Assembly: GCF_010993965.1 (NCBI RefSeq)
Contig: NZ_WIXM01000002.1
Coordinates: 372,001-436,000, forward strand
Reading direction: 5' to 3'
Source of the DNA: Gracilibacillus sp. YIM 98692
Lineage (GTDB): Bacteria > Bacillota > Bacilli > Bacillales > Amphibacillaceae
DNA length: 64,000 bases
Shown in pieces: positions 29,739 to 55,551 of the stretch; the stretch's first letter is position 1; each line of letters starts with the position of its first letter. A program made the position numbers and the translations under genes. The notes under the pieces were generated by a model, which worked only from the letters and a program-made list of their open reading frames with translations, did no database searches and had not been told where the DNA came from.

Positions 29739-29753
29739 GATTTAACTTTTTAT

Positions 29754-29890
29754 CATGGTGAACAATCGTACGTAAGACCCCAAGACTTAGATAAATGAAA
29801 AAAGGATAAGTGAGGGATAACGAACGATAGCACCCTGGTAAGTTTCGTTAACCATCAGTGGGGGATAAAGAACCTCACTAATATCTATGA
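29754..29890 (+). repeat. Structured ~140-nt repeat, copy 1, upstream of spoIIIE
   Basis: It begins right after TTTAT with CATGGTGAACAATCGTACGT and continues with the shared blocks ACTTAGAT...ATAAGT, GATAACGAACGATAGCACCC, AAGTTTCGTTAACCATCAGT. The left half matches copies at 41104 and 55345 closely; the last ~20 bases have diverged, so the 3' hairpin is broken. It fills nearly the whole gap between the ylzJ terminator and the spoIIIE ribosome binding site. Confidence 0.85.
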
Positions 29891-40081: not shown

Positions 40082-42121
40082 TTGAGTGATAGAAAACAAG
40101 CATTAGATATGGCTTTAAAACAAATTGAAAAACAATTTGGTAAAGGCTCTATTATGAAACTAGGTGAACAAGCAGAACAAAAGGTAGCTACTGTATCAAG
40201 TGGCTCGATTGCAGTAGATACAGCTCTTGGTGTTGGTGGATATCCAAGAGGAAGAGTCGTTGAAATATATGGACCAGAATCTTCTGGTAAAACAACTGTT
40301 TCTTTGCATGCAATTGCAGAAGCGCAAAGGGCTGGGGGACAAGCTGCATTTATTGACGCTGAACATGGTATGACTTGTTGCTAGACAAGTAAAGTGGAAA
40401 CACTTTATGAAAACTAGCGGATCGGTTTCTTTGCCGTTCTAACTACATTCCTGAATTGGCTGGGGAAGTTCCAGCCCTGTAACAAAGTTGGGTTACAAGC
40501 CATAATCCCCCGACGTGCGGTAATAGGACACCCTTATTACGGTGCGAAGTTCGGAGAGGACGGCGAAAAGCAGACCTGAGAAGCGGTTAGTGAAGTAGTC
40601 GGTGGTCCAAAAGGTTGCTAAGACTAATGGATGCAAAAAGCATTAGAGTGAATCCACGGAAGTACAACTCGTAAAGCGTGGCGGAGACGAATAAAGGAAG
40701 TGCCGCACCTCAATAGGAGAGGTTCAACCTTGGATAAAGTATTCGTGTTTACTTTATCTGAATTACACCTGTAACGGTGTCTTGTCCTGAGCTATCCAAC
40801 TGTTTGCGAAAGGATGGTTGACGGGTTAGAGTGGGAGTCTAAGGCAACTGCTATAAAGGATAAGGAATGTGGTACAAGTGAACCTCGCTAGAGATTGACA
40901 AGGATGGTGTCATCCCATAATCTCTAAAAGGTAGGAAATGACCTTTGAAAGCGAGGGGCAGCAGCCCGTATTAGCTAAAATGAGTAGCCGTTAGTCACTA
41001 TACACAGCAATGTGTAAAGGAGGATAAAACTACTCTATGCGAAGGGGCATAGTCGGTTTTGTTGCATAATAGAATGTGTTGATTGCTCTTATACATACTT
41101 TATCACGGTGAACAATCGTCCGTAAGACCCGCACTTAGAATAATGAAAAAAGTCTAAGTGGAGGGTAACGGACGCTAGCACCCTGATAAGTTTCGCTAAC
41201 CATCATTAGAGATGAAGAACCTCCCCAATGATGGAAGTTTCTCTTTATGTTTTCTATTGTGCGGCCGATGGAACGCCGTGTGCGAGGAAACTTGCACGCA
41301 CGGTGTGAAGTGGGGGAAAACAGCTCCTAACTGGTAATGCAGAGGATGACTGTTACCTATCACTATCATTAGACCCAGTCTATGCAAGAAAATTAGGTGT
41401 TGATGTGGATGAATTGCTTCTATCTCAGCCAGATACAGGTGAACAGGCGCTTGAAATTGCTGAAGCACTTGTAAGAAGTGGTGCAGTAGATATGCTAGTT
41501 ATTGACTCTGTTGCAGCACTAGTACCAAAGGCAGAAATAGAAGGCGAAATGGGCGATTCCCATGTAGGTTTACAAGCTCGACTTATGTCTCAAGCCTTAA
41601 GGAAATTGTCTGGTGCGATTAATAAATCCAAAACAACTGCTATTTTTATTAACCAAATCCGTGAAAAAGTTGGAGTTATGTTTGGAAACCCTGAGACAAC
41701 ACCTGGCGGTAGAGCATTAAAGTTTTATTCTTCTGTTCGTTTAGAAGTTCGCCGAGCGGAAACGTTGAAGGTCGGTAATGATATGGTTGGTAATAAAACA
41801 CGTATCAAAATCGTGAAGAATAAGGTAGCCCCACCGTTTAAGCAAGCAGAAGTAGACATCATGTATGGTGAAGGTATTTCAAAAGAAGGGGAATTGCTTG
41901 ATATTGGATCTAACTTAGACATTGTTACAAAAAGCGGTGCCTGGTATTCATATAATGATGAAAGGTTAGGGCAAGGAAGGGAAAACGCGAAGCAGTTCCT
42001 AAAAGAAAATGAAGATGTTGCACATGAAATTCATCAGGCCATTCGAGCATATTACGGTTTGGATGAAGAAGATGGAACCGAAGAAAGTGAAGATCAACAA
42101 GAAGCATTAGATATAAAATAA
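40082..42121 (+). CDS. recA: RecA recombinase, interrupted by a group II intron (exons 40082-40367 and 41367-42121)
   Basis: RecA forms filaments on single-stranded DNA, drives strand exchange and triggers LexA self-cleavage. Joining 40082-40367 to 41367-42121 gives exactly 347 codons: a 346-residue RecA with Walker A GPESSGKT (64-71), IDAEHALDP rebuilt at the junction, and intact loops [20 protein letters not shown]. The intron falls after the first base of codon 96 (Ala), two residues past catalytic Glu94. Unspliced RNA ends at a TAG 14 bases into the intron. The start codon is TTG after AGGAGG, which is unusual for recA. Not a pseudogene on this evidence. Confidence 0.95.
41104..41242 (+). 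repeat. Structured ~140-nt repeat, copy 2, inside intron domain IV
   Basis: Starts after TTTAT with CACGGTGAACAATCGTCCGT. Predicted pairings: CGTCCGT with ACGGACG, CTTAG with CTAAG, and CCATCATT with AATGATGG at the 3' end. It occupies most of the loop closed by the domain IV stem (41064-41074 with 41252-41262). It is 139 of the roughly 177 loop bases. Confidence 0.88.
41273..41306 (+). ncRNA. Group II intron domain V
   Basis: A 34-nt hairpin: ACGCCGUGUGCGAG, a GAAA tetraloop, and CUUGCACGCACGGUGU. The catalytic triad is CGC and a small bulge lies on the 3' strand, as in canonical domain V. Confidence 0.92.
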
Positions 42122-42128
42122 AAATGAG

Positions 42129-42163
42129 AGAGCTCCTGTTTGAAAGAATACAGGAGCTCTTTT
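42129..42163 (+). terminator. Terminator after recA
   Basis: AGAGCTCCTG and CAGGAGCTCT form a perfect stem, followed by TTT. The T-run merges into the TTTAT that precedes a repeat fragment. Confidence 0.85.
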
Positions 42164-42165
42164 AT

Positions 42166-42193
42166 CACGGTGAACAATTGTCCGTAAGACCCC
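42166..42193 (+). repeat. Left-end fragment of the structured repeat (copy 4)
   Basis: CACGGTGAACAATTGTCCGT then AAGACCCC matches the first 28 bases of copy 2 with one change and follows TTTAT. Similarity stops abruptly; the rest of the element is missing. Confidence 0.75.
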
Positions 42194-55330: not shown

Positions 55331-55344
55331 TGTGAATATAAAGT

Positions 55345-55488
55345 GAGACTTCCATCAGTGAGGGGTTTCTTAACACCCCACTGATGGTTAGCGAAACTTA
55401 TCAGGGTGCTAGCGTCCGTTATCCCCCACTTATACTTTTGTCATTATTCTAAGTCTTGAAGTTGGGGTACGGAAGATTGTTCACTGTG
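55345..55488 (-). repeat. Structured ~140-nt repeat, copy 3, between hfq and hflX
   Basis: Read on the minus strand it follows TTTAT and begins CACAGTGAACAATCTTCCGT. It keeps ACTTAGAATAATGACAAAAG, GGATAACGGACGCTAGCACC and GATAAGTTTCGCTAACCATC, and ends with the intact hairpin CCATCAGTG / CACTGATGG. Copy 3 is the best preserved at the 3' end. Confidence 0.88.
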
Positions 55489-55551
55489 ATAAATTTGATA
55501 CATGAAATGTTGCTGTCAGTTCATGCTATGAGAAGAAAACAAGAAAAGTAG

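Follow-up and report, generated by a model that had tools for sequence, protein, structure and literature searches.

A protein-less, repeat-carrying group II intron divides recA of Gracilibacillus sp. YIM 98692

The recA gene of the salt-loving bacterium Gracilibacillus sp. YIM 98692 is divided by a group II intron of 999 nucleotides (nt), which occupies positions 40368–41366 of the forward strand and has no open reading frame (ORF) for an intron-encoded protein (IEP). Positions refer throughout to the window, that is, the whole 64-kb stretch of DNA that was analysed; the assembly consists of 69 contigs and is 98.77% complete. The anatomy of the intron, the uniqueness of the recA gene, the intact state of its exons and the splice-site pairing throughout a family of related introns are established by the observations described below. 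The explanation that best accounts for the whole, and that we consider highly probable, is that the intron belongs to a family settled at this site in recA, has lost its IEP here, and has been kept as an element capable of splicing only.

Exon 1 (40082–40367, +) starts with a TTG codon and comprises 95 codons plus the first base of a split Ala codon, and exon 2 (41367–42121, +) contributes the two remaining bases of that codon, a further 250 codons and the stop codon. Translated separately, the exons give 95 residues up to ...IDAEH and 250 residues from LDPVYARK, and with the Ala codon, which the intron breaks as G|CA, the total is a RecA of 346 amino acids. A first-pass annotation of this DNA had proposed that removal of the 999 bases restores a 346-residue RecA in one frame, and the exon translations bear this out; the predicted spliced junction reads ...GAACATG|CATTAGAC.... 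The same annotation placed the insertion immediately after the catalytic glutamate. The position is right, but the adjacency is not exact: the intron interrupts the Ala codon, which is separated by one His codon from the Glu of the DAEH motif that we take to be the catalytic residue. In a domain search, the RecA and RecA_C domains were together covered by the two exon pieces, exon 1 matching PF00154 over 1–90 (E 1.6e-43) and exon 2 matching PF00154 over 92–262 as well as RecA_C. A search of the assembly for a second recA, which would have contradicted the first-pass annotation, returned two matches only, which are the two exons. The closest named recA genes are those of G. halophilus (95%) and G. 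dipsosauri (93%), both values referring to the best segments of exon 2.

Selection on the exons was assessed against 15 uninterrupted recA sequences, taken from 13 congeners, G. dipsosauri (probably one of those congeners) and one Oceanobacillus, with G004, G007 and G008 excluded. For both exons, nonsynonymous divergence (dN) is about 0.02–0.10 and synonymous divergence (dS) is above 1 where computable (four dS values were not), and third-position changes far exceed all others. One exon 2 value (dN 0.29, G001) was set aside as out of register; the values for G003 and L027 are identical and probably represent one species. Purifying selection thus acts on both exons, which are open throughout. 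Because the exons are open, cover RecA and RecA_C, and differ from their relatives mainly in third positions, recA looks functional, which supports the view of the first-pass annotation that this is a working gene rather than a pseudogene. The exon 1 frame is closed by a stop codon 17 nt past the start of the intron (ORF 40082–40384, 100 amino acids), so that an unspliced mRNA would yield a stub only. Since the only copy of recA, the principal gene for DNA recombination, is split by the intron, RecA, and with it recombination and SOS induction, probably depends on splicing.

The assignment to group II is based on two Rfam families, both of which match above their cut-offs and beyond chance. 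RF00029 covers domains V and VI (41271–41366) with 56.4 bits against a cut-off of 40 (E 2.1e-8, full model, 1–77) and ends exactly at the last base of the intron, and RF02004 matches the core of domain I (40438–40613) with 39.4 bits against a cut-off of 34.5. Domain V had been recognized at 41273–41306 in the first-pass annotation, and is recovered here with its CGC triad at 41274–41276 and a predicted fold that scores z −4.2. Domain VI and the 3′ splice site (...CCTATCACTAT) occupy 41307–41366; the fold of domain VI is less pronounced (z −2.8, with 3 of 200 shuffles as good), and does not resolve a bulged branch-point A. Group II introns typically begin with GUGYG and end with AY, and the 3′ end of the recA intron, AU, fits this pattern. 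At the 5′ side, the intron-binding site IBS1, AACATG (40362–40367), forms the last six bases of exon 1. It pairs at all six positions, one of them as G-U, with the exon-binding site EBS1, CGTGTT (40744–40749), which is displayed in the 8-nt loop (40742–40749) of a hairpin with a fold score of z −4.3; this pairing, too, had been noted earlier and is confirmed. A second, candidate pairing would join EBS2, GCGT (40676–40679), to IBS2, ACGC (40356–40359; exon positions −12 to −9). In the predicted fold, domain IV is closed by a stem of 14 pairs (left arm 41061–41074, right arm 41252–41265).

Homologous introns at the same recA base were identified with a pattern that combines exon 1 with a group II start, applied to 397 genomes of the order together with the reversed pattern as a control. 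The pattern matched 12 genomes and the control none. Eight of the 12 matches, including the one described here, are in recA and are spread over five genera and four families; the other four (L124, L127, L128 and L129) are not recA, their genomes carry a whole recA, and they were rejected. A ninth intron at the identical base is present in G. halophilus, which lies outside the sample. The nine introns measure 999 (the present case), 809, 2789, 2783, 2790, 1024, 2847, 1821 and 773 nt, and the present one is 60–71% identical to the other eight over 766 aligned ribozyme columns. A reverse transcriptase frame (632–640 codons, stop to stop) is found in domain IV of four of the nine, broken pieces of one in the 1821-nt copy, and none in the remaining four, to which the Gracilibacillus sp. 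YIM 98692 intron belongs. Within a single genus, introns of 2783, 2789 and 2790 nt carry the IEP frame and one of 1024 nt does not. The protein-less ribozyme of G261 is identical to the ORF-bearing one of G108 in all 766 columns, in an intron that is 1759 nt shorter, and appears to derive from the IEP-bearing form by a recent internal deletion. The insertion site is empty in 15 of the 17 Gracilibacillus genomes. The introns of Gracilibacillus sp. YIM 98692 and G. halophilus are 65% identical, and neither the tree of introns nor that of exon 2 joins them as sisters; with weak support at the forks in question, this no more than suggests separate arrivals rather than vertical descent within the genus. 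In plasmid and phage collections, 130 and 7 records, respectively, match the intron; none does so over 80% of its length, and the best covers 25%.

The pairing at the splice site is a property of the whole family. EBS1 pairs with IBS1 at six of six positions in all nine introns, with G-U allowed, and both partners vary (CGTGTT, CATGTT and CGTGCT on the intron side; AACATG, AGCATG and AGCACG on the exon side); in eight of the nine, EBS1 lies within the homologous loop. IBS1 corresponds to the end of the Glu-His-Ala coding stretch, A R C A Y G. Six of the nine introns have CGUGUU as EBS1, which places U opposite the wobble purine of Glu and G opposite the wobble pyrimidine of His, so that all synonymous spellings of Glu-His can pair. 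These six are not independent, since G108 and G261 have identical ribozymes and four of the six come from one genus. A conserved GCGU, the candidate EBS2, stands opposite A-Y-G-C of the preceding Asp-Ala codons in all nine introns. The motif GAYGCNGARCAYGCN was found in 71 of 80 named recA loci that were fetched, and most of these would accordingly provide a pairing site.

Taken with the intron anatomy, these comparisons point to a site-specific group II intron family that has colonized recA at its DAEH-A motif across several genera of the order, with the Gracilibacillus intron having lost its reverse transcriptase/maturase and persisting as a splicing-only element. On folding, the recA transcript would bring the end of exon 1 into pairing with EBS1, and probably also with EBS2; the ribozyme would then join G to CA, restoring the Ala codon and the 346-residue RecA. 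We infer that this takes place in the cell, either by self-splicing with host factors or with help from a distantly related maturase. Domain IV has a free loop, which a mobile repeat would have entered; the repeat is predicted to fold there by itself and would leave together with the intron.

This repeat (41099–41248; intron positions 732–881) is a unit of about 150 bp with TTTAT at both ends, and was delimited by alignment of the intron copy with 20 others that have unrelated flanks. Of the 21 aligned copies, 16 have TTTAT on the left and 18 have it on the right. The intron copy folds as DNA (z −5.0), and in the predicted fold of the intron the 14-pair stem surrounds the repeat, which forms its own hairpins and leaves domain V intact. 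With the whole intron as query, at least 26 further places were matched in the same genome, all within the repeat (27 of 141 candidates were scored). The query matches 15 of the 17 genus genomes, and among the matches listed, 13 other congeners match in the repeat and G. halophilus in the intron proper. A 33-nt core, with up to three mismatches, occurs 50 times in the genome of Gracilibacillus sp. YIM 98692 and 10 times in G013; it was not found in G004, G005 or G015, and a control pattern was never found. Within the window, further copies are located at 55338–55493 (−) and 29749–29882 (+), and a 32-nt piece (42161–42192) follows closely after recA, starting in a T-rich stretch beyond an inverted repeat 3′ of the gene. 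A search of plasmids with the repeat consensus gave one record, a Pseudalkalibacillus plasmid, matching the right third only. The TTTAT motif, a length within 100–400 bp, the many copies and the fold of the intron copy are features of bcr1-type elements. By description rather than sequence, the repeat resembles bcr1 of the Bacillus cereus group in size class, high copy number and association with TTTAT, but differs in its distribution, since bcr1 is reported in the available text of PMC6542083 to be restricted to that group.

Interruption of recA is not limited to this base. A RecA search of 397 genomes gave a match at E 1e-10 in 396, and a gene was counted as interrupted when its best match was weaker than 1e-130. 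By this measure recA is interrupted somewhere in 23 of 396 genomes, the remainder having a best match of 7e-144 or better, and the sites (Gracilibacillus RecA numbering) are residues 64, 95/96, 123, 203–206 and about 215. In ten of the 23, domain V is matched at the 3′ edge of the insert. Six others match a group I model at 28–45 bits, below its cut-off of 50, with sites at residues 203/204; the inserts in the remaining seven gave no match at the thresholds used, one of the seven having been tried at the gathering threshold only. L165 (G242) was left out of one of the insert model comparisons. Two interruptions each are present in G138, G214, G261, G285 and G306, and probably in G216, where the pieces are on two contigs. 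In G261, recA (L123) bears an IEP-carrying group II intron at residue 123 besides the protein-less one at 95/96. The second insert of G214 (L119, reverse strand), about 3.6 kb long after residue 205–215, contains, in sense orientation, two matches to domain V and one to domain I, and may be a nested or tandem intron. G110, G388, G306 and G216 (L159, L160, L161 and L171) have inserts following residue 64, immediately ahead of the Walker A motif; the three complete cases measure about 310–400 nt, and no Rfam family matched them at the thresholds used. GroEL, the control gene, was recovered at 6e-74 or better in all but one of 150 genomes; the exception (G119, 6% contaminated) has a split or broken copy. 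In the same set of 150, recA is split in seven. With one control gene and small numbers, it is suggestive that recA is interrupted more often than GroEL. A limited literature search found no printed description of multi-site recA interruption or of the present protein-less case.

The question of what assists splicing leads to the alternative that deserves most weight. ORF and profile searches of the intron revealed no reverse transcriptase/maturase ORF, and the intron might be spliced in trans by a maturase from elsewhere, an account that differs from the preferred one in the helper only and that has a probability not far below even. According to the available part of PMC4424553, ORF-less bacterial introns are rare and nearly always found in genomes with related IEPs. 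Reverse transcriptase sequences occur at four places in the present genome: one intact group II IEP frame of 637 codons, one broken IEP in two pieces, and one frame of 1280 codons. The intact IEP (L131, contig 34; TIGR04416, 365.9 bits) could be such a helper, but it shares only 33–36% identity with four IEPs from the recA intron family (these four are 61–91% identical to one another), and its own intron aligns significantly with the recA intron only over 55 nt of domain V (84%). There is no closely related maturase in the assembly. Of four introns in the genome with RF00029 above its cut-off, one is cut by a contig end, so that a related IEP may reside in unassembled sequence, given also the incomplete assembly. 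A B. subtilis genome used as a control showed no match to domain V, but did give some match to reverse transcriptase. The start of contig 20 (L175) falls within another group II intron and carries the tail of an apparent IEP, part of which is thus unassembled, but the fragment gave no tblastn match at E 0.01 to any IEP used. The 1280-codon frame (L133, contig 14) has a reverse transcriptase domain and is weakly similar to retron and Drt2 enzymes, far below their cut-offs.

Several observations weigh against the splicing-only explanation. The 5′ end of the intron is GUAUG, one base off the usual motif, as it also is in G. halophilus. In G214, the weakest row of the family, the homologous loop does not contain EBS1 and there are further stretches with six of six pairs; the candidate EBS2 pairing is 4 bp only. 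Three of the four protein-less introns, including the present one, have branch lengths of 0.38–0.58 changes per column, as against 0.005–0.095 for the three distinct ORF-bearing rows listed singly, which could mean decay. In exon 2 of the G. halophilus recA (L070/L130), the frame shifts near residue 278, so that such genes may not always be healthy, unless this is a draft error. The divergence of the intron and its non-standard 5′ end could also be read as signs of a recent recA pseudogene with a dead intron in a cell that lives without RecA. We regard this as very improbable in view of the open and constrained exons, the presence of EBS1/IBS1, domains V and VI and the domain IV stem, and the gene neighbours, with CinA upstream and RNase Y and YmdB downstream all in place. 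That the intron acts as a switch, the efficiency of splicing in response to salt, temperature or ribosome traffic setting the level of RecA, could be argued from two observations: with a stop 17 nt past the splice site, the full-length protein can be translated only after splicing, and introns of more than one type have interrupted recA at several positions without the gene having been lost. Such a role is nevertheless unlikely, since the site is empty in most of the genus and the pattern can be accounted for by repeated invasion of a conserved site, with no need for a benefit. An assembly or sequencing artefact might be considered for a draft of 69 contigs, but its probability is negligible given the exact intron ends, the in-frame join, the same insertion base in other genomes, and a contig of 468,733 bases that extends more than 50 kb beyond recA on either side.

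Beyond the splicing-only explanation, we tentatively put forward a bolder version, which is possible rather than probable: RecA, the product of a central DNA-repair gene in a free-living bacterium, may rely on ribozyme splicing without a cognate maturase, aided by host proteins or by none, with guides shaped to read D-A-E-H via wobble pairing, in a family able to enter and persist in almost any bacterial recA, and with a second mobile repeat inside. The recA family presents the steps side by side at one site, from IEP-bearing introns through the freshly deleted form in G261 to older protein-less copies. It offers a direct test of two questions: what aids splicing once an intron has lost its maturase, and whether a mobile RNA in effect targets a protein motif and not a single DNA spelling.

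Protein-less group II introns in housekeeping genes are described in the accessible sections of PMC4424553 as typical of organelles and rare in bacteria. The closest precedent for the host gene is the recA group II intron of Geobacillus kaustophilus (Chee and Takami 2005), which is cited in the portions available of PMC3522654 and PMC4424553 and called active in the former; it is likewise a group II intron in recA, set alongside by description. For the protein-less state, the counterpart is C.te.I1 of Clostridium tetani, which in the excerpts of PMC3919590 and PMC4424553 is also without an IEP and without a related IEP in the genome, and was the sole known bacterial case of this kind as of 2015. 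Because a 2022 survey, in the part available (PMC8919778), counted ORF-less introns in many genomes, that statement is valid for 2015 only. C.te.I1 differs in being located beside a surface-layer protein gene and in undergoing alternative splicing, whereas the present intron has recA as host gene and a distant IEP in the genome. The recA intron of Bacillus anthracis (Ko et al. 2002, as cited in an excerpt of PMC3984707) shares the host gene but is a group I intron, a different type of ribozyme; the six group I-like inserts of the present survey lie at residues 203/204. Group II introns in recA are thus of a kind already known, of which the Gracilibacillus intron is a protein-less, repeat-carrying variant. 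Three points are new compared with these systems: the intron encodes no protein and has no close maturase in the assembly, a repeat travels inside it, and a single base of recA is used recurrently by introns whose pairing tolerates wobble.
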